IMG/VR virus record: IMGVR_UViG_3300008113_000065
Coordinates: 1 to 50,975 of that record
Strand: one strand, 5' to 3'
DNA from: a virus
DNA: 50,975 nucleotides
Under the pieces are notes generated by a model, which was not told the DNA's origin, searched no databases, and saw only the letters and a list, made by a program, of their open reading frames with translations. Each line of letters starts with the position of its first letter. Within the stretch, counting starts at the first letter, position 1. Made by a program: the position numbers and the translations under genes. Of this stretch, positions 3,090 through 47,825 are shown piece by piece.

Positions 3090-3347
3090 TTATTTATTTT
3101 TTGTATTATCAACAGTCGCGGCAGGAGAGGCATCGCGGCCAGTAAAGTTCTGGCTCAATGCTCCCTTAGCGGAGTTGTAAAGATCACGAGCAAGACTGCG
3201 AAGCATCTCTTGATCGTTAGCATTAGCTTTCTGAGAATAGAATTTATCGTATGCTTGAGGCTCGTAAGGAGTGTCAAGTTTAGCAGGTTGGCTAGGCATA
3301 GCCGCGCCAGCTTCATTCTTTCGCATTTCTGTAGGTGATCCGCCCAT
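3090..3347 (-). CDS. Uncharacterised small MGG-type protein, 85 aa
   Basis: Starts MGGSPTEMRKNEAGAAMPSQ, has a flexible Pro/Ala-rich N-terminus and a short helical region (ANDQEMLRSLARDLYNSAKG). It is the first gene after the portal in transcription order. No domain is recognised. The MGG start, low complexity and location suggest a minor virion component rather than an enzyme. Confidence 0.65.
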   Translation of the reverse strand: MGGSPTEMRKNEAGAAMPSQPAKLDTPYEPQAYDKFYSQKANANDQEMLRSLARDLYNSAKGALSQNFTGRDASPAATVDNTKNK

Positions 3348-3389: not shown

Positions 3390-5813
3390 TTATCCTGCCG
3401 TTGGAGGCTTTGGAGGGTTAGCTACATCATTAACCATTCCAAATTGTGTAGGAACTTCGCCTTCAAGTTTTCCAAACTCGCGTGATTGACCAAGTGCAAC
3501 ACGGCCAGTGCGCCCACCTGCTGCTGGAGATGGTGCGCCACCTGCGGCTGCTGGCATTAAGTCTGGTGGAGGAGGAACACCATATCCTGCGGTAAGATGA
3601 CTGAATGCTTGCTCTGCGGCAGAACGAAACTCTGCCAATTGTTTATTATCTGCTCCCTTGGCTTGAGCTTGCATGATGTGTCCCATAAAATGCTCCAACG
3701 CTTTGTTCAGCGGTTGAACCATCTCTGGAGGCAATGAACCAGCGGGAGCGTTTTCGATGAGTGGCATTAGCTTTTGAGCCATGACACTCAAATGAACCAT
3801 GTCATTATCTCGCGGAGAGACTGGAACCTCTTGACCAGCGATGATGGATTGAAGCTCGATAATCTGCTGGCGGGTTGCTTCGATAGCCAGAGACTCAACT
3901 TGGTCTTTTGGAAGAATTACACTATTCGCAATACTCTCACCAAGTTTACGACTCCAATCCAACTTGAGCAATTCGTCTTGATTGACATTAGGATTGCCCA
4001 TGTATCGTTGGATCATCATGTCAAGAATCTGATCGTTCTGAGCTTGGGTATCTGGCAACAACTCTTCAGCAGGGCTATATGCCATGAGAAGAATATCCGA
4101 AGGAGGAAGATTGCGCTCAAGCATATTAAGACAACAAGCAATCGCCTCCTCATCCAAATGATCTGGAACTTGGAATGGAACCATGAACGATGGCAATTCC
4201 ATGACGCTACGATCAAACGCATCGACAACATCAGCCCTAGCCCAAACAGCGTTAGGAACCATCTGACGAGCGATGTCTAGCTTTGTCTTCAACTCAGCTG
4301 CAGCTTTGATATGTTCTGGATGGCAGATGCCTCGTTGCATACGCTCAACTGCTTTGCTGTATTGCTTGGTAAACCGCATCAAGATTCCTTCGCGGATTTG
4401 ATTCTCGATAGCCGCCACTCTGTTAATCTCAGAAGCAGTAACTTTCTGGTCGCGCATTCCAAGAGCAGAGCTTGGAAGGAATGTGCCAATCTGGATTTCA
4501 GCAAGCCCAGAAATGAAGCGATCCAAGTTCAAGAAGTCATTCACATTCGCAGGCATATTCTGCGGAATCACTTCATATCCCTCCGCGATATAAGCGACAG
4601 GATGATGGACAGTCAGTGGAGTAGCACCAGCCTTGGCATTCGGGCCTTTCTTGAGGAGCAACATTCCAGAAAGATAGGAATTATCCACAACAAGGTTGCG
4701 AGCCTTCTCAACAGCAATATGAGTATTGTAAAGATCACGCCCAGCACCACGGGAACTCATCAATGCACCACTACCAATCTCAACAGAAAACAACGCGAGG
4801 CATTCGCTCATTTTGCTGTAACGATCAATCTGTGTGCAAATCTCGTCGCCAGATTTGTCGTCAAAAAGGAAACGGCTAATCTTACCATTAGGCTCACGAA
4901 CCAAAAGCTCGCCCAGCTCGACATACTTCGCATCGTTCTCGTAGCTTGCTCCGTAGCTTCCTTCACGAATCCAGTCTTCGTATCGGCGAGCATCGTCATC
5001 AGCATCAAGCGTGCGTCCAGCGGGGATAGCGTTGTTGATTGCTTTAACGAGATTCTTGATGTGCCAACCCGCCATTGCGGACATCTGTGGGTCTTCAAGA
5101 ACTGGCAACAACTCTGCGATTTGATAGCGGCGTTTCCGCGCCCAGATTGGAGTTGCCTCGGTTTCTTGCGGTGTCTCGATGGAAAAGAATGTGTAGTCTT
5201 GGCGAAGGAACTCTGGCTTCCAATCACGAAGATCATCCCAGCACAATGCACAGAATCCAAAGGTGGTATTTTCGTGAACAACTTGGGCAACGATGTCGTC
5301 ATGTCCCTTCCATCCACGGATACATTTTGTAATCTCTTCGCGGAAAATCTTGGTCTTATTTTCAGAGTCAACCCCTTCAACTGGATACTTTGTGTATGTC
5401 AGCGTAGGAGCTTGCTCAATGACTTGTTTGAATGGAGGCTGGATACGGCTAACCATCGTGGACAAGAATCCTGTAGGACGATTGCTGCGCCAGTTTTGCC
5501 CCATGCTTTCGAGCTTCTTCGCGCTATATGGAGGCTCGTTGTTGAGCTTCTTTTGAATCAGTTGATTCTTGCGGTTACGCTCAACATTTTGTTGCTTCAA
5601 GCGGCGATAGGCAGAGTGAGCTTGAGCAGCATCTTTGAATGTGCGACGAACTTGTAGCGTCTTTGGATCAACAGTATCTCCATTGCTAGTAGGAGAAGGA
5701 TCAACAACATCAAGGTTTAGCTTCCTTGGTTTGCTTTGATCTGAAATGCGCGGAGCCTTGTTAGCGTAAGTATCGGTAACAATTGCGGGTAGCGGTTTTA
5801 AAACATCTGCCAT
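3390..5813 (-). CDS. Portal protein
   Basis: 807 aa, second gene downstream of the large terminase, with only a Cys-rich gene between. The early segment ending in LSTMVSRIQPPFKQ leads into a mixed alpha/beta body. Conserved-looking regions such as LALFSVEIGSG, GMRDQKVTASEINRVAAIENQI and the helical RMQRGICHPEHIKAA resemble the clip/stem region of podovirus-type portals. The C-terminal 130 residues are Pro/Gly/Ala-rich (PPPPDLMPAAAGGAPSPAAGG). Size and position fit a ring-forming portal at the DNA-entry vertex that docks terminase. Assignment is by context plus general features, not a diagnostic active site. The start follows an AT-rich AATAATTATG leader. Confidence 0.75.
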   Translation of the reverse strand: MADVLKPLPAIVTDTYANKAPRISDQSKPRKLNLDVVDPSPTSNGDTVDPKTLQVRRTFKDAAQAHSAYRRLKQQNVERNRKNQLIQKKLNNEPPYSAKKLESMGQNWRSNRPTGFLSTMVSRIQPPFKQVIEQAPTLTYTKYPVEGVDSENKTKIFREEITKCIRGWKGHDDIVAQVVHENTTFGFCALCWDDLRDWKPEFLRQDYTFFSIETPQETEATPIWARKRRYQIAELLPVLEDPQMSAMAGWHIKNLVKAINNAIPAGRTLDADDDARRYEDWIREGSYGASYENDAKYVELGELLVREPNGKISRFLFDDKSGDEICTQIDRYSKMSECLALFSVEIGSGALMSSRGAGRDLYNTHIAVEKARNLVVDNSYLSGMLLLKKGPNAKAGATPLTVHHPVAYIAEGYEVIPQNMPANVNDFLNLDRFISGLAEIQIGTFLPSSALGMRDQKVTASEINRVAAIENQIREGILMRFTKQYSKAVERMQRGICHPEHIKAAAELKTKLDIARQMVPNAVWARADVVDAFDRSVMELPSFMVPFQVPDHLDEEAIACCLNMLERNLPPSDILLMAYSPAEELLPDTQAQNDQILDMMIQRYMGNPNVNQDELLKLDWSRKLGESIANSVILPKDQVESLAIEATRQQIIELQSIIAGQEVPVSPRDNDMVHLSVMAQKLMPLIENAPAGSLPPEMVQPLNKALEHFMGHIMQAQAKGADNKQLAEFRSAAEQAFSHLTAGYGVPPPPDLMPAAAGGAPSPAAGGRTGRVALGQSREFGKLEGEVPTQFGMVNDVANPPKPPTAG

Positions 5814-19049: not shown

Positions 19050-19853
19050 ATGCAATTCAAAATAGAACAATATGAAAGATGCCAGTCAATGGCAGAAGGT
19101 TCCATTGAGGATCATCTCATAGGAATCACAAAGCCAACGATTGACCGAATACTCAAGATGGAGAATCCATCAGACTGCATAGCGTTGTATACCTTCTATG
19201 CCTACACCAGAAAATGGCAGAAGAATAATGCTGTCTACGCAACATCTGACTATGCGATGAAGGCGATGACTTGGGGCAGGGAAAGGTTTGCAAAGGCAAA
19301 GTCTCAACTCAAAGAAGCTGGATTCATTGAGGACATTCAGCGAAAAGACGCAGGCGGAAAAGTCATTGGCTGGTATGTCGGAGTTAAGTTTGCACAGAAC
19401 GCAACCATGGGGAATTTCTCTATTGCTGATGTTCAAGAAAACCACCCTACGGTTTTACCACAGGGTGGTTCCACCAGAGTGTGGCTAAACCGCACCCAAA
19501 TACCTATTACTAATAATAAAATACCTAATACTGGTAAAGAAATGCAAGAGACAGTAGCGGCGCAGGAGGTTTCATTGCCTTCACCCTGTGAAGTCAATAA
19601 GCCAAAAAGACAAGTTAAAGATACAAGAACAACTGAAGAATTTGTAGAATATCTCAAAAAAACCTACGACTGGGTAAATGTTGATATAGAACTCAAAAAA
19701 ATTGATGCTTGGATTGCAACTCATCCAGACCGCAAGAAAACTCGTCGTTTCGTTACCAACTGGCTGAACCGAGTTGAAAAACCAATGGAGAAACAATCGT
19801 ATGTTCCCGGCACAATGCTTGGAATCAATCAACCATACACACCATCACTATAA
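19050..19853 (+). CDS. Putative replication initiator (O/DnaD-like)
   Basis: 267 aa. The N-terminal 115 residues look like a winged-helix DNA-binding domain: ENPSDCIALYTFYAYTRKWQ, then AMTWGRERFAKAKSQLKEAG and FIEDIQRKDAGGKVIGWYVG. A polar linker (about 120-190) separates it from a compact C-terminal region (EEFVEYLKKTYDWVNVDIEL, RRFVTNWLNRVEKP) like the end of primosome-type proteins. It precedes a DnaB-type helicase with the methyltransferase between, matching a lambda-O/helicase replicon. The linker-coding DNA holds an inverted repeat and AT-rich repeats that could be the origin. MAEGSIEDHL is a possible shorter start. Assignment is moderate. Confidence 0.65.
   Translation: MQFKIEQYERCQSMAEGSIEDHLIGITKPTIDRILKMENPSDCIALYTFYAYTRKWQKNNAVYATSDYAMKAMTWGRERFAKAKSQLKEAGFIEDIQRKDAGGKVIGWYVGVKFAQNATMGNFSIADVQENHPTVLPQGGSTRVWLNRTQIPITNNKIPNTGKEMQETVAAQEVSLPSPCEVNKPKRQVKDTRTTEEFVEYLKKTYDWVNVDIELKKIDAWIATHPDRKKTRRFVTNWLNRVEKPMEKQSYVPGTMLGINQPYTPSL
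19440..19532. other. Candidate replication origin inside the initiator gene
   Basis: AACCACCCT (19440-19448) and AGGGTGGTT (19462-19470) form a perfect 9-bp inverted repeat. Further CCACC/GTGG elements follow to 19495. Two AAATACCTA copies (19498-19506 and 19519-19527) lie 21 bp apart in an AT-rich tract. This iteron-then-AT-rich order inside an initiator linker mirrors lambda ori. No experimental support. Confidence 0.45.
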
Positions 19854-19866
19854 ATAGAAAGACTAA

Positions 19867-20586
19867 ATGAATGAGCTACACTTATTTGCTGGAGCAGGGG
19901 GAGGAATCCTCGGTGGCATCCTTCTCGGACATACCCCCGTGTGTGCTGTCGAGATTGAACCTTACTGCCGGAAAGTCCTACTCCAAAGACAACGAGACGG
20001 CATCCTGCCAAAGTTCCCAATCTGGGACGATGTCACCACCTTCGATGGGAAACCGTGGCGAGGAAAGGTCGATGTCGTCTGTGGAGGATTCCCGTGTCAA
20101 GACATTAGCATTGGAAACAGTAATGGAGCCGGGATCGCAGGAGAGCGAAGCGGATTGTGGAAAGAAATGGCAAGGATCATTGGCGAAATACGACCTCGAT
20201 ACTGCTTTGTGGAAAACTCACCAATGCTTACTATTCGAGGACTCAACAGAGTCCTTGGTGATCTTTCCTCAATGGGGTATAATGCTAAATGGGGAGTTGT
20301 GGGAACTTGCGATGTCGGAGGGAATAACAAACGATTACGAATGTGGATTGTCGCAAACCTACCCGACTCCTTGCGCGAAAGTTACAAGCCCAAGAGGAAA
20401 GGCTGCACAGGCAAGAAAGGGAAATCCTATGGACACGCTTCCAAATGTAGTTGGTGGCGTTCCTCACCCCCACTTGAGCGAGTGGCTAATGGGGTGGCCC
20501 ATAGGATGGACAGACTTAAAGCAATCGGCAACGGCCAAGTTCCAATTGTGGCTGCAACAGCATGGAGAATCCTTGGAGGAGAATAA
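19867..20586 (+). CDS. C5-cytosine DNA methyltransferase (Dcm-type)
   Basis: 239 aa with the standard motif order. Motif I is HLFAGAGGGILGG (5-17, AdoMet binding), followed by CAVEIEPYCRKVL. Motif IV is GGFPCQ with catalytic Cys77. Motif VI is VENS (115-118) and motif VIII KRLRMW (155-160). Motif X is GNGQVP (221-226). The target-recognition region is short (about 165-205), so the enzyme is compact compared with the usual 300-400 aa. It would methylate cytosine C5, probably to evade restriction. Its TAA lies directly before the helicase ATG. Almost the whole gene is overlapped in the +1 frame by a second 239-codon frame. Confidence 0.92.
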   Translation: MNELHLFAGAGGGILGGILLGHTPVCAVEIEPYCRKVLLQRQRDGILPKFPIWDDVTTFDGKPWRGKVDVVCGGFPCQDISIGNSNGAGIAGERSGLWKEMARIIGEIRPRYCFVENSPMLTIRGLNRVLGDLSSMGYNAKWGVVGTCDVGGNNKRLRMWIVANLPDSLRESYKPKRKGCTGKKGKSYGHASKCSWWRSSPPLERVANGVAHRMDRLKAIGNGQVPIVAATAWRILGGE

Positions 20587-20590
20587 ATGA
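19871..20590 (+). CDS. Overlapping +1-frame protein inside the methyltransferase gene
   Basis: Starts at ATG 19871 (the two starts form ATGAATG) and ends at 20590, so it covers the methyltransferase almost exactly. Residues 70-232 read like a conserved phage/bacterial hypothetical family: VEDSRVKTLA, then KKWQGSLAKYDLDTALWKTH, FPQWGIMLNGELWEL, YPTPCAK and the Trp-rich HLSEWLMGWPIGWTDLK. An internal ATG at 20072 follows GAGGAAAGG and may be the real start (173 aa), because residues 1-68 look less constrained. The function is unknown. Its last 4 nt overlap the helicase start. It could instead be a passive shadow of Dcm conservation. Confidence 0.55.
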   Translation: MSYTYLLEQGEESSVASFSDIPPCVLSRLNLTAGKSYSKDNETASCQSSQSGTMSPPSMGNRGEERSMSSVEDSRVKTLALETVMEPGSQESEADCGKKWQGSLAKYDLDTALWKTHQCLLFEDSTESLVIFPQWGIMLNGELWELAMSEGITNDYECGLSQTYPTPCAKVTSPRGKAAQARKGNPMDTLPNVVGGVPHPHLSEWLMGWPIGWTDLKQSATAKFQLWLQQHGESLEENK

Positions 20591-21837
20591 CTATCCCTAT
20601 CGCAAACACAGCAGAGAATGCAGCTATCTCTTTGCTCGTATCCAATCCAGATTGTTATTCACAACTTCACTGGGAACCCTCGTATTTCTTCCACAATGCC
20701 ACTAAAAGCGTTTTTGAAGCAATTGAGGCCATCCATAGCCGAACTGGAGTTATCACGGCTGTTTCTGTCATTTCGGAGCTAGAGACAACAGGTAAACTCG
20801 CTGATGCTGGCGGAACTGATGGAGTCATGGAGATGATTAAAACTATATACATTGCTCCCGGCCCTGTATCGGTATCCATCGCTGATGACTACCGCCAGCA
20901 ACTCATCAAGGCTAAATCCTACCGAGATGCTATCAAGCTAATCACAAATTCAGACAGAGACATTCGTGAGATGCGAATGGACTTGAATGAACTCTCAGAG
21001 CAAATCGCAGGATGCGTTGTCACTGACTCTGAAGTTAAAACCATCAAGCAACACATCAATGAATTAGTCGATGATCTTGAGAACAAGAACAAGCTGGATA
21101 CATTCAAAACTGGAATGCACGATCTCGACATGGGATTCGGCGGTGGATTCCATCGTGGAGAAATGGTTGTTGTCGGAGCGCAGACTTCGGGAGGAAAATC
21201 AATCCTGCTTTACCAAATCGCTCTTGAGGCTCTGATGGATAATAAATCTGTTGCGATCTTCTCGCTTGAGATGCCATGCAAAACGATCCTTCGCCGCATG
21301 GCTTCAAACCTCATTGGAAAGAAGATTGTCAATCAAGGTGACTTTGGAGATGGGACATCGTTTGTCGCATCATTCAGAGAAATTGCCAACGCACTTCAAG
21401 CTCTGAATAAAATGCCAATCACCCTCCGCGATGATCTTTCTGAAGTTGGAGCAATCGACGCTGAAGCACAACGACTGGCATCGCTAGGAAAGGCTGATGT
21501 GATTATCGTGGACTACCTGCAAATTGTATCCATGCCGAAAGCTGATAATCGTGAGCAAGCGATTTCAGAATTGACTCGCAGATTAAAATTGACTGCCCTA
21601 AAAAGTCAGTCTCTTGTGGTCACTGCAAGCCAACTGAACGATGATGGAAAGCTACGCGAGTCTCGTGCAATCGGACATCACGCTGACCATGCGTTGTTCA
21701 TCGTTCACGAGAAAAACAATTCCAGCATTGTCGTGGAGAAAAACCGCCGAGGCGCACGGGGAGTAGGTTTCCCAGTTGTCATGCGCGGAGAAATTTCACG
21801 ATTCGAGCAAACAGAAAAACAAGAAAAGAAAAAATGA
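20587..21837 (+). CDS. DnaB-like replicative helicase
   Basis: 416 aa. The N-terminal helical domain (1-130; ENAAISLLVSNPDCYSQLHW) matches the DnaB N-domain. The RecA-like C-domain begins near 172 with TGMHDLDMGFGGGFHRGEM, Walker A GAQTSGGKS (197-205) and Walker B VIIVDYLQIV (305-314). Later elements LVVTASQLN and ESRAIGHHADHALFI complete the motor. It unwinds the phage fork 5' to 3' as a hexamer. No primase or polymerase is seen here, so host enzymes are probably used. The start overlaps the +1-frame stop (ATGA) and its own stop overlaps the next gene. Confidence 0.93.
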   Translation: MTIPIANTAENAAISLLVSNPDCYSQLHWEPSYFFHNATKSVFEAIEAIHSRTGVITAVSVISELETTGKLADAGGTDGVMEMIKTIYIAPGPVSVSIADDYRQQLIKAKSYRDAIKLITNSDRDIREMRMDLNELSEQIAGCVVTDSEVKTIKQHINELVDDLENKNKLDTFKTGMHDLDMGFGGGFHRGEMVVVGAQTSGGKSILLYQIALEALMDNKSVAIFSLEMPCKTILRRMASNLIGKKIVNQGDFGDGTSFVASFREIANALQALNKMPITLRDDLSEVGAIDAEAQRLASLGKADVIIVDYLQIVSMPKADNREQAISELTRRLKLTALKSQSLVVTASQLNDDGKLRESRAIGHHADHALFIVHEKNNSSIVVEKNRRGARGVGFPVVMRGEISRFEQTEKQEKKK

Positions 21838-28878: not shown

Positions 28879-30696
28879 TTAATCTAATGGCTTACTGAAA
28901 AGATTAATAGCTTCTCTCGTGCGGACAAGAGATTCCAATCTTTTAACTGCATTTTGATAATTTCTACTTTCTTTTTGCTTCGGAGTTGCTTTTTCAAGAG
29001 CAGAATTAATTTCATTAATTTTGTCTGTATAGCTTTTATAAATATCAGTTGAAATTGGATTTTCAATTGGCTCAAATTGCTTTACTTCTGAATAAGCATT
29101 AAGCAGTATTTTTACTGCTCCATTTTTAAGCCGATAAAGAGTATCAAGATTCAAGTCTGGAGAAGCATTTTTATCTAATGCGCCTTGTGTTTGTTCTAAT
29201 GATTGACGCTCATCATTTGATAATGCTCCAACTCCAGCAGAACCAGTTTGAGACAATTCCTTCATTTCAGCAAATTTATTCCAACCTACATTTTTTGCTA
29301 CGGAATTTAATGATAAAACTAAATCTTGAACTTTTTGAACTTTATCTAGGTATTTATCAACTCCAAAAAAATTCTTAGCAATAACAGCCGCTTCTTCGTA
29401 TGTAACTGGAGTTAAAGGAATCTTTTTTTCATCTCCATAGTATTTTGATATAACTCCAACAAGCTCTGGATTGTCTTGAATTTTATTAATTGCATTATCT
29501 ATTAAATCAATATTTTTTGATTGTTCAGTTATATTATTTTTAATTTTCTTTAGATATGTTTTATCTGTTTTTAATTGCTCTCTTTGCTCTTTGATTCTTT
29601 CAAACTCTGCTTTTTGCGCCTCTCTGGCTTCTTTTTGTTTTTCAATAGCCAACCTTTCAACTGATATATTCATTGCATCAGCTTGATTTTTCAAATCGGC
29701 AACTCCCTTTGTATTATCAACTTGCTGAAGATACCATTTTTTAGTTCTTGGATTCTCAACAGCGGTAACTGTCCAATATGGAGTGCTTAATTTTGCAGCA
29801 GCCTCAAATGCCAATCCAGAATCGCTAGGTTCAAATTGAATTTTTCCAACATTTCGTGGAGTCTTAATGTCGGCTGGTTGTTCTGGTAGTTTTCCGATTG
29901 CTTGAACTCCAGCTAATGCAGGTGTTTGAGCAGCTGCCGCTGCTGGCTGAACTTGGAGTCCAGTTAGTGCAGGAGGTTGAGTGCCTTGAGTCGATACACG
30001 CTGAACGCTTGGCATTATATCTGGTTCAGGAATACTTATTTCATCAGATGGAGGAACAACAGTGGCAGAAGGAACAGGTATTGGTGGAGCTGGCTCTGTT
30101 TCTGGCAATGGCGTTTTTGCATCAATCCTCAATGAGCCATCTTTTGGGGTTCCAGTTGGAACAAATACAGCATCTGTTGGAGACAATTCACGATTGCCAT
30201 AAGTATTAGAACTTGTATCTACCTCAGTATCAATAATTGGCTTTTGTGGTTTAGGTTTTGCTTCTACAACTTCACCAGAGGGATTCACCATACCAAGCCT
30301 TTGAGCGGCCTCATCTATTGCTGCCATTCTTTCATCGACATCTGCTTCTAGGCCACGCTCAGAAGCTACTTTCAGCTTCAGTTCATCAAGAAATTGTTTA
30401 TTCTTTGTCTTTTGCTTTGCTTCTTCAAGAAGTAGTTCTTGAGCAAACTTACGCTTCTCTTTGGCTTCCTCTTCCTTCTTCTCATATCTAGCAGTAATCC
30501 CACCTAACGCGCCTTTAGCAATGTTAGAAACAGCACTAGCGATGCCTTCAGCTACAAGCTCTGGTCGAGAAGATTGAACTTGGATAGCTTGAAGTGGCTG
30601 GAACTGCAATGCTCCGCCGCGAGTCAAATCAATTGCTGGCAGCGGTTGCAAACCAGCTAGGTTAGCAAATTGAGGAGAGAAGGAATATTCAGCCAT
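28879..30696 (-). CDS. Internal virion-type protein, 605 aa
   Basis: The N-terminus (AEYSFSPQFANLAGLQPLPA) is followed by long charged helices (residues 60-130), a Pro/Ala-rich flexible segment (140-280; VPSATVVPPSDEISIPEPD, QPAAAAAQTPALAG) and a second helical half to the end. No catalytic motif. It is 10 nt downstream in the operon from nothing else than the 167-aa MGG gene and upstream of the 1041-aa protein, so a partner in the internal core or ejectosome is likely by context. Confidence 0.55.
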   Translation of the reverse strand: MAEYSFSPQFANLAGLQPLPAIDLTRGGALQFQPLQAIQVQSSRPELVAEGIASAVSNIAKGALGGITARYEKKEEEAKEKRKFAQELLLEEAKQKTKNKQFLDELKLKVASERGLEADVDERMAAIDEAAQRLGMVNPSGEVVEAKPKPQKPIIDTEVDTSSNTYGNRELSPTDAVFVPTGTPKDGSLRIDAKTPLPETEPAPPIPVPSATVVPPSDEISIPEPDIMPSVQRVSTQGTQPPALTGLQVQPAAAAAQTPALAGVQAIGKLPEQPADIKTPRNVGKIQFEPSDSGLAFEAAAKLSTPYWTVTAVENPRTKKWYLQQVDNTKGVADLKNQADAMNISVERLAIEKQKEAREAQKAEFERIKEQREQLKTDKTYLKKIKNNITEQSKNIDLIDNAINKIQDNPELVGVISKYYGDEKKIPLTPVTYEEAAVIAKNFFGVDKYLDKVQKVQDLVLSLNSVAKNVGWNKFAEMKELSQTGSAGVGALSNDERQSLEQTQGALDKNASPDLNLDTLYRLKNGAVKILLNAYSEVKQFEPIENPISTDIYKSYTDKINEINSALEKATPKQKESRNYQNAVKRLESLVRTREAINLFSKPLD

Positions 30697-45627: not shown

Positions 45628-46196
45628 ACGATTGTATATGTGCTGCCTGCTGGCACTGTTAGTGTGACTCCAGAATTTACTGTGATTGGCCCTGCTGACA
45701 TTGCGTTTCGGCCAGAAGTAATAGTGTAGTTTGTTGTCATTACAATGTCATTTTCAAAAAATAATTTATCTGGCCCTCCTCCTACTGGCATACTTAATCC
45801 AGTTGCGCCTGTAGCACCGATTTGTCCAGTAGGGCCAGTAGCTCCTGTTGGTCCTCCAGATGGCCCAGTAGCACCGATTGGCCCAGTAGCACCGATTGGG
45901 CCTACTGGACCTGTTGCCCCAATAAATCCACCAATATTCCCAACGCGAATAATATAACAAAGCAATCCTTCTCCTTCTTCGCGTGGGATTCCAGCGATAG
46001 TGGCTGGTGAAGTTACAGGGTCGCAAGGAATATCCCACACCACGCGACCATTTACGATTGTCTTATTAATCGTTCCGTAAAGAGCATAAACAAGATTATC
46101 AATCAACGAAGGAACTGACTCAGACGAAATAGAAGGATATGGAATCTCTGGACAGCAAGTGCTGGAATAAGTTGAGCTATTGCAATTGCAGGACAT
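45624..46196 (-). CDS. Collagen-like fibre protein with shared C-terminal tip, 190 aa
   Basis: A Cys-rich start ([18 protein letters not shown]), a 65-residue globular part with [17 protein letters not shown], then Gly-x-y repeats (about 98-137; [20 protein letters not shown]). The C-terminal 45 residues ([17 protein letters not shown] to [10 protein letters not shown]) resemble the tip of the larger collagen-like gene. It forms a probable trimeric thin fibre in the tail. ATGA junction with the tailspike. Confidence 0.75.
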
Positions 46197-46241
46197 AAGA
46201 TTCGTTGTTTTTACTTTATTTAAAATTTAAGTCAAACATTT

Positions 46242-47825
46242 TCACACAACTGTCCAAACCCCACCCGCAGGAACTGTAACTATTACGCCGGGAGCGACTG
46301 TGATTGGCCCAAAGCTACCAGCATTTTGTGATACTGGAATTGTGTAAGAAGTATTTACTGTTTGACCATTCAAAAAGAAAATTGCATCCGTTCCTGCGCC
46401 AGTTGCGCCGCCACCTCCAGCGCCAGTTGCTCCAGTAGGGCCAGTAGCTCCAGTAGAACCGATTCCAGTTGCTCCTTGGATGCCTTGAACGCCTTGAGGC
46501 CCGGTTGCCCCAGTTGTTCCCTGAATCCCTGTTGATCCTGTTACACCTGTCGCGCCAGTCGCTCCTTGTCCTCCAGTAACACCAGTTGCACCTGTGCTGC
46601 CTTGGATGCCTTGAACGCCTTGAGGCCCGGTTGCCCCAGTTGCGCCAGCCGGTCCCGGTGCGCCAGACAATGCTACATTCCAGCTTGAAAATGTTCCTGA
46701 CCCAGTAATTGAAGTAACATTTACAACCAATGCTCCAGTCAAGCTATTGTAACTTGTAATAGTTCCTTCCATTTTGTCAGTAGAACTATTAGCAATAATG
46801 ACACTTTGACCAATACTCAGTGCAAGTCCAGTTGCTACTGTCAAAGATTTCGTTCCTAAAGCAATTGTCAATGAGGTTGAAGATGATGTTGTATACTTAT
46901 CTCCAGCAACGCCAGTTGCACCTGTTGCTCCTGTGGAACCCTGTCCTCCGACAACCCCAGTTGCGCCTTGTATTCCTTGGATACCAGTAGCTCCTGTTGC
47001 TCCTGTAGTTCCTGTAGTTCCTGTTAATCCTTGTGGACCAGTTGCCCCAGTGCTTCCGCTAAGTCCAGTGGCTCCAGCCAGTCCAGTTGCGCCAGTCGCG
47101 CCAGTCGCGCCATGCGGCCCACTAGCACCTGTTGCACCAAATCCAGTAGCTCCCGTTGCTCCAGTAGGGCCACCAGATGGTCCTGTTGCTCCAGAGGGTC
47201 CAGTTGCGCCAATACCTCCATCTCCAGACAATGCGATTTCCCAATCAGAAAAAGTTCCAGAACCTTGAATCTTGTCTATGTAAATAGTAACAAAATTATC
47301 TGCAACTTGAATAGCAGTTCCTTCAATCCAATCATAAGGATAGGCTGAATTAGCTACAGCCCGAAGCCTAGAACCATAAGTCCATCCAATATCAGCAGAA
47401 GAATAAAAGAATGTTTTTGTTCCAACTTGAATAGGATGAGTTGTTGAGCTTTGGCGAGTAATTACTGGAGAAATACCTGTTGCCCCAGTTGCGCCAACTC
47501 CAGTAGCTCCTGTTGCGCCGAGTCCACCAGTCGCGCCAACTCCACCAGTCGCACCAGTCGCGCCAAATCCAGTTGCTCCAGTAGAACCAGTAAGACCTTG
47601 CGTTCCGATTCCACTTGCCCCCATTGGCCCTGTAGAGCCAGTCGCTCCCTGAATCCCAACTCCAGTTGCGCCTTGCAATCCAGTCGATCCAGTGGCTCCA
47701 GACGCTCCAATGCCAGTAGCTCCTGTAGCTCCAACATAAGGCCAATTACAATCATGGACATTTAATGGGGCGCAACCGCACCCAGAAGAACTTTGAGAAC
47801 TAGGAATCCAATTGTATTTAGCCAT
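46242..47825 (-). CDS. Collagen-like fibre protein, 527 aa
   Basis: Three long blocks of Gly-x-y triplets, mostly G-A-T (around 33-115, 205-300 and 385-480), are separated by two similar globular inserts. Those inserts share the pattern [19 protein letters not shown] and [19 protein letters not shown], so an insert-plus-collagen unit appears duplicated. The last 45 residues ([18 protein letters not shown] to [10 protein letters not shown]) match the smaller collagen-like protein. Such phage collagens form trimeric fibres. Confidence 0.82.

Follow-up and report, generated by a model that had tools for sequence, protein, structure and literature searches.

The window, by which we mean the whole stretch of DNA analysed here, is one whole IMG/VR virus record (IMGVR_UViG_3300008113_000065) of 50,975 bp. 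No terminal direct repeat of at least 15 bp was found in the 50,975-bp window, and a terminase-like gene together with tail fibre genes indicates a tailed phage. On the plus strand lies a gene for a putative replication initiator of 267 residues, followed by a cytosine methylase gene and then by a DnaB helicase gene. The 267-residue protein matches PHROG 186, annotated as "DnaD-like helicase loader", at E 1.1e-5 over residues 45-180 (N-domain and linker), and the same family is matched by 21 of the 23 members of A3; a Pfam search of the protein returned no family above its cut-off. The features on which the analysis rests are the following.

19050-19853, plus strand: replication initiator gene (267 aa) with the candidate origin in its linker; PHROG 186 match, DnaB gene downstream
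19119-19394, plus strand: N-terminal winged-helix domain (residues 24-115), presumed dyad binder; AlphaFold model, mostly pLDDT 60-86, and winged-helix matches
19442-19452, plus strand: iteron 1 (CCACCCTACGG), an imperfect dyad; in the 16-bp register and kept in relatives
19458-19468, plus strand: iteron 2 (CCACAGGGTGG), the best-conserved dyad and the sole strict CCACANNGTGG of the window
19474-19484, plus strand: iteron 3 (CCAGAGTGTGG), starting exactly 24 bp ahead of the first AT repeat
19498-19518, plus strand: AT-rich unit 1 (AAATACCTATTACTAATAATA), presumed unwinding element, where the weakest 50 bp of the gene begins; repeat searches and relatives
19519-19539, plus strand: AT-rich unit 2 (AAATACCTAATACTGGTAAAG); repeat searches and relatives
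19632-19769, plus strand: C-terminal three-helix domain (residues 195-240), presumed helicase-recruiting module, swapped among relatives; AlphaFold model and relatives
20587-21837, plus strand: phage DnaB-type helicase, presumed partner of the C-domain; Pfam DnaB_C at E 1.1e-35, covarying with the C-domain type

Two further places in the window were recorded as side observations. At 19867-20590 on the plus strand, two ORFs of 239 residues in different frames overlap almost end to end, the methylase at 19867-20586 and a second frame at 19871-20590. Both are open in the relatives L008 and L051, with identities of 169/236 and 151/238 for the methylase frame and 139/235 and 128/237 for the second, which is possibly an overprinted gene. 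At 45798-47732, dense repeats of 9, 18 and 27 bp lie within minus-strand genes, and the minus-strand ORF 46242-47825 matches tail fibre and collagen-like tail families. A repeat survey of the whole window revealed no rival iteron array, the remaining arrays being mostly collagen-like tail-fibre repeats.

The AlphaFold model of the window protein (mean pLDDT 57) contains a winged-helix domain at about residues 24-115 and three helices at 195-240, with a low-confidence stretch (115-190) between them. Codons 131 to about 163, which the repeats occupy, fall within that stretch, and this supports the earlier proposal that the repeats lie in the interdomain linker. VIA structural comparison of the N-domain gave winged-helix matches with Z up to 9.5. 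A Foldseek search of the PDB returned the DnaD N-domain 2v79 as its best match, at a weak E of 0.036 and with none at E<=0.001, and a profile search of PDB sequences gave no match. As a separate observation, one relative (L185:8700-9600) has intact origin units and a break in the N-domain reading frame, for which a frame error, decay or a recoded stop could account.

The preliminary description of this DNA had reported a perfect 9-bp inverted repeat, and a repeat search recovered it within a larger inverted pair, with AACCACCCT at 19440-19448 and AGGGTGGTT at 19462-19470. The two AT-rich repeats said to be exactly 21 bp apart were likewise found, as AAATACCTA at 19498 and 19519, and Tandem Repeats Finder listed them independently (19498-19543, period 21, 2.2 copies). 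AAATACCTA has no further plus-strand copy in the window and one reverse-complement copy at 29347; a third copy is present in the L007 group of relatives. The CCACC/GTGG elements of the same description are present too, but in place of one inverted repeat with extras they are better read as 11-bp dyads in a 16-bp register. When the DNA is stacked at that register, three tandem dyads of the CCA-N5-TGG type start at 19442, 19458 and 19474, which is 56, 40 and 24 bp before the first AT unit; a scan of the window scored the dyad at 19474 as CCACANNGTGG with one mismatch.

Self-matching of the DNA gave the same periods. Over 19440-19487, lag 16 gives 20 matches in 32 positions, a value equalled by 0.04% of the window's 48-bp segments (0.7% when every segment may take its best lag from 12-24), and over 19498-19536, 15 of 18 match at lag 21, which is equalled by 0.004% of window segments. 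The repeat signal of the window taken alone is suggestive; it is secure because it is conserved in relatives. Averaged over ten representatives, self-match peaks at lags 16 (0.475) and 32 (0.444) in the dyads and at lags 21 (0.557) and 24 (0.489) in the AT part. Because a 16-bp pitch is no multiple of three, the dyads start in codon phases 2, 0 and 1, and therefore they make no peptide repeat; the AT-part periods of 21 and 24 bp are whole codons.

The first protein scan returned 14 relatives, 11 with the N-domain and linker in common and 3 with the C-domain only. Synonymous change was then compared among 7 representatives of N-domain clusters with 55-85% amino acid identity, of which L028, L067 and L069 had entered through DNA patterns and the others through protein searches. 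In pooled pairs, codons 1-130 carried 908 synonymous differences against 1064 expected (ratio 0.85), and codons 131-161 carried 24 against 284 (ratio 0.08); none of 20,000 permutations gave a drop in the linker as extreme. Conservation at synonymous sites, put forward in the preliminary description as a check, was thus borne out by an about ten-fold fall in synonymous change exactly at the repeats. Its refuting case, loss of the repeats where the protein is kept, is contradicted by the presence of the box in 24 of 24 protein-found contigs with a window-type N-domain. These results demonstrate that the repeats are selected as DNA. Searched as DNA, the box pattern gave 34 stretches (conservation at the positions fixed by this pattern is built in, as it is for the helix count and the AAATGCTTTAA pair pattern below), and 30 of them lie behind an N-domain homologue, with identities reaching down to 34-39% (L052, L063, L066). 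Of the remaining 4, L017, L023 and L056 are truncated because their contigs start only in the linker or the last part of the N-domain, and L058 is a chimera.

Three relatives carry the sequence out of frame or outside a coding region. In L170 the repeat is read in another frame (KCFK instead of NALS) and is flanked in one ORF by an N-domain and by a C-domain that is 40% identical to that of L042 over 65 residues. The initiator of L108 stops after the N-domain at 3324, and the dyads and units, the latter containing TGA and TAA, lie in the gap up to the next plus-strand gene at 3547. L161, a contig of 4,981 bp, has free-standing dyads and units at 183-275, outside any initiator ORF; no N-domain was found on this contig, and we read the ORFs downstream of the element as packaging-type genes. 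From L170, L108 and L161 it follows that coding function is not what keeps the sequence.

The relatives also differ in how the two protein domains are combined. The window-type N-domain, together with the element, is joined to several C-domain types, and the window-type C-domain is also found with a second, different N-domain (L013-L015). At the corresponding place, L013 and L014 carry CGG(G)AAAA-type repeats at a pitch of 15-16 bp, and L015 has just two such copies, 47 bp apart. Wherever the C-domain is of the window type, the DnaB is 79-99% identical to that of the window (8 of 8 loci: L002-L006, L013-L015), whatever the N-domain. With the C007 C-domain type, DnaB identity to the window's is 54-55% in L007-L012, L039-L041 and L058 and 40-45% in the L045, L047, L050 and L056 contigs; one C-domain type therefore occurs with two DnaB lineages, and the linkage of C-domain and helicase is not strict. 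For the C028 type, no DnaB match was found in the available contig DNA. Across these relatives, the N-domain stays with the boxes, and the C-domain tends to go with the downstream DnaB. The chimeric initiator of L058 (5396-6361, minus strand) has an unrelated N-domain followed by its own 21-bp dyad repeats (ATTCCGCA...TGCGG) and then AT-rich DNA, and it retains a partial window-type box after its own dyad repeats, possibly a fossil of an origin swap.

A search with the A4 N-domain alignment extended the family to 80 viral loci (of 99 confirmed) and to five MAG contigs labelled Omnitrophota, Microgenomates, Ruminococcus, Moranbacteria and Bacteroidota, host labels that are tentative because the contigs may be viral sequence in bins; a genome scan with A2 had given no match. 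Distant homologues (33-48% identity) retain the plan of dyads, then 23-24 bp, then 24-bp units AAATGCTTTAAGTACTAATAATA, and always the dyads come first and the AT-rich repeats lie on the C-domain side. This geometry was quantified in sets of 57 and 39 loci that came from protein searches, although within them the unit was chosen for its resemblance to a 13-base core. Among the 57 distant or new loci (L105, whose contig ends inside the N-domain, is omitted), paired AAATGCTTTAAGT units at <=3 mismatches occur in 39, with a spacing of 24 bp in 37, 25 bp in one and 27 bp in one. The other 18 comprise 4 with one unit, 11 with AAATACC-type units like those of the window (L084 and L095-L104, without a core match at <=3 mismatches) and 3 with neither (L119, L120 and L126, where no unit was recognisable at <=3 mismatches).

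The 39-locus set for dyad analysis was made from the 57 by leaving out 14 loci without a core match (<=3 mismatches), the near duplicates L112, L131 and L141, and the short contig L148. Its first-unit consensus is AAATGCTTTAAGTACTAATAATAT, in which 12 of the first 13 positions, the core used for picking, are conserved at 92-100% and one at 87%. In the 75 bp upstream of the first unit, 26 of the 39 loci have CCA-N5-TGG dyads, 39 dyads in all, where shuffled sequence yielded 0.5 and a coding control none; gap lengths other than N5 gave 0-6 dyads, and 13 of the 39 loci are without an exact dyad. The distance from dyad start to unit is 23 or 24 bp for 20 dyads and 41 bp for 11, and dyads are spaced 16 or 17 bp apart in 11 of 13 cases in distant loci. 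When the AAATGCTTTAA pair pattern was searched as DNA, it gave 37 stretches, 33 of them in an ORF carrying the N-domain.

DNA melting and GC skew had also been suggested as checks. In a nearest-neighbour profile of the gene, the weakest 50 bp coincide with the AT unit in all 7 close representatives; of 3 distant representatives, 2 have their weakest DNA after the box, and L066 has it before. Many places across the window, about 0.5% of its 40-bp windows, are weaker than the AT unit. GC skew tracks gene orientation, has no switch at the candidate origin and is hence uninformative.

The likeness to lambda ori that had been proposed is supported, in that the layout agrees with the annotation of NC_001416 and with passages of PMC5043065 and PMC7466680, and replication would presumably start here as well. 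Like the candidate origin, lambda ori (NC_001416, 39034-39118 and the AT-rich stretch after it) lies inside the initiator gene between the domains, with iterons within O from codon 117 of 299 and the weakest DNA just after them. Both systems have tandem iterons with internal dyad symmetry and AT-rich DNA beside them, the weakest 50 bp lying 89 bp after the first iteron in lambda and 56 bp after it in the window. Passages of PMC5043065 and PMC7466680, with NC_001416, give four lambda iterons of 18-19 bp at 20-24 bp spacing. Here, in contrast, there are three 11-bp dyads at 16 bp (a pitch of 16-17 bp in the family), and the AT part is itself a conserved tandem repeat. Downstream, a methylase and a phage-encoded DnaB stand where P follows O in lambda. 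In lambda the N-domain of O sets origin specificity and its C-domain the helicase side, and a separate helicase loader, P, loads host DnaB. The window phage encodes its own DnaB, and no loader gene was recognised on a non-systematic inspection. We detected no direct sequence similarity between the window protein and lambda O, and the window protein has no match to PHROG 678 (O-like initiators) at E 0.1; the bridge to lambda O runs through relatives only, with L007 and like relatives matching PHROG 678 at E 3.2e-27 and lambda O at E 1.7e-35. Iteron plasmid origins of the RK2 type offer a second comparison: as in the window, iterons adjoin tandem AT-rich repeats, there 13-mers whose sequence and arrangement matter (PMC5043065). 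According to the same passage, plasmid iterons are bound by monomers and are mostly simple direct repeats, whereas those of the window are dyads inside a coding gene. Passages on SPP1 oriL in PMC5615212 do not indicate whether it is within gene 38.

Taken together, these results make it very probable that 19440-19543 is a theta-type phage origin in the linker-coding part of the initiator gene. In a mechanism modelled with lambda as a guide (PMC5043065, PMC7466680), the winged-helix N-domain, probably as dimers, would bind the three 11-bp dyads at 16-bp pitch, the resulting complex would open the adjoining 21-bp AT-rich repeats, and the C-domain would recruit the phage's own DnaB encoded downstream, as co-inheritance suggests. 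Origin specificity would accordingly reside in the N-domain and the helicase side in the C-domain. The analysis shows that the DNA is under selection, that its geometry is fixed throughout a large family, that the element is linked to the N-domain, that C-domains are exchanged, and that the element persists where it is out of frame or non-coding.

The same element might instead serve regulation: bound by the N-domain as an operator or a similar site, it would tune transcription or translation of the replication operon, with replication starting elsewhere. The N-domain fold is common to MarR-like regulators, and the element may sit outside the gene, as in L108 and L161. However, it lies about 390 bp inside the gene and not before it, the invariable order of dyads and AT-rich repeats speaks against such a site, and conserved 21/24-bp tandem AT-rich units would be expected more of an unwinding element; we therefore regard this explanation as improbable. 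An RNA or single-stranded DNA function, either an initiator mRNA hairpin or a single-strand initiation or priming signal, is less probable again. Predicted folding was stronger than in shuffles for most of 7 stretches tested (z -1.1 to -5.0), but the predicted helices vary among relatives, and hairpins arise as a by-product of overlapping dyads. For two candidate helices in 19 distinct sequences, pairs were invariant or broken with no consistent compensation (some columns being fixed by the pattern); for example, one position of helix 2 is paired in 3 of the 19 sequences, and one position of helix 1 in 7. Finally, constraint on a conserved linker peptide, or recent recombination at a mere crossover point for C-domain swaps, would suit the whole-codon AT periods and the true swapping of modules at the linker, but is hardly credible given the frozen synonymous codons, the changing codon phase of the dyads, the retention of the DNA without the peptide in L170 and without coding in L108 and L161 (unless all three are assembly errors), and a low divergence that starts abruptly beside near-saturated N-domain codons when the pairs of the seven representatives are pooled, which recent exchange would not easily give.

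An origin of iterons within a gene is known from lambda; what appears to be new is the family-specific geometry, the conserved 21/24-bp unit and the non-coding escape. A literature search in which subscription journals were thinly covered found no description of these three, which is weak evidence of novelty. In 50,697 phage records, tblastn with the tested relatives gave no match, and with one N-domain (L149) it found no relative in PLSDB (72,556 plasmid records). The same arrangement of DNA is found again in bacterial genome bins and in many uncultivated viruses that are only distantly related, in some cases away from any gene.

We also advance, tentatively and at a little under an even chance, a joint reading in which the AT unit is a family-wide specific recognition element and not passive melting DNA. 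It would take the form AAATGCTTTAAGTACTAATAATA with a 24-bp period or the one-codon-shorter AAATACCTATTACTAATAATA with 21 bp, fixed 23-24 bp from the last dyad start, and would be better preserved than either the initiator or the dyads in uncultivated phages and in the Omnitrophota, Microgenomates, Moranbacteria, Ruminococcus and Bacteroidota MAG contigs. By eye, the AT unit contains TACTAATAATA; in the DnaA-trio, or basal unwinding element, runs of TAA/TAG trinucleotides are bound as single strand by DnaA. On the joint reading, the unit would amount to an older, second origin code, which the initiator or host factors perhaps read as single strand, and the whole replicator could leave the gene and act in trans.

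These findings provide a sequence-defined candidate replicator for a broad group of uncultivated phages, some from candidate-phyla bacterial bins, and a simple search rule for it: CCA-N5-TGG dyads at 16-17 bp, then 23-24 bp to a 21/24-bp AT unit. The natural variants carry the element in another frame or in non-coding DNA, have swapped N- or C-domains or, in a chimera, retain a fossil box; they allow the function of the DNA to be told apart from that of the protein, and they make the modular rule of lambda, N-domain with ori and C-domain with helicase, testable. The family is also a possible source of small replicons for hosts without genetic tools.
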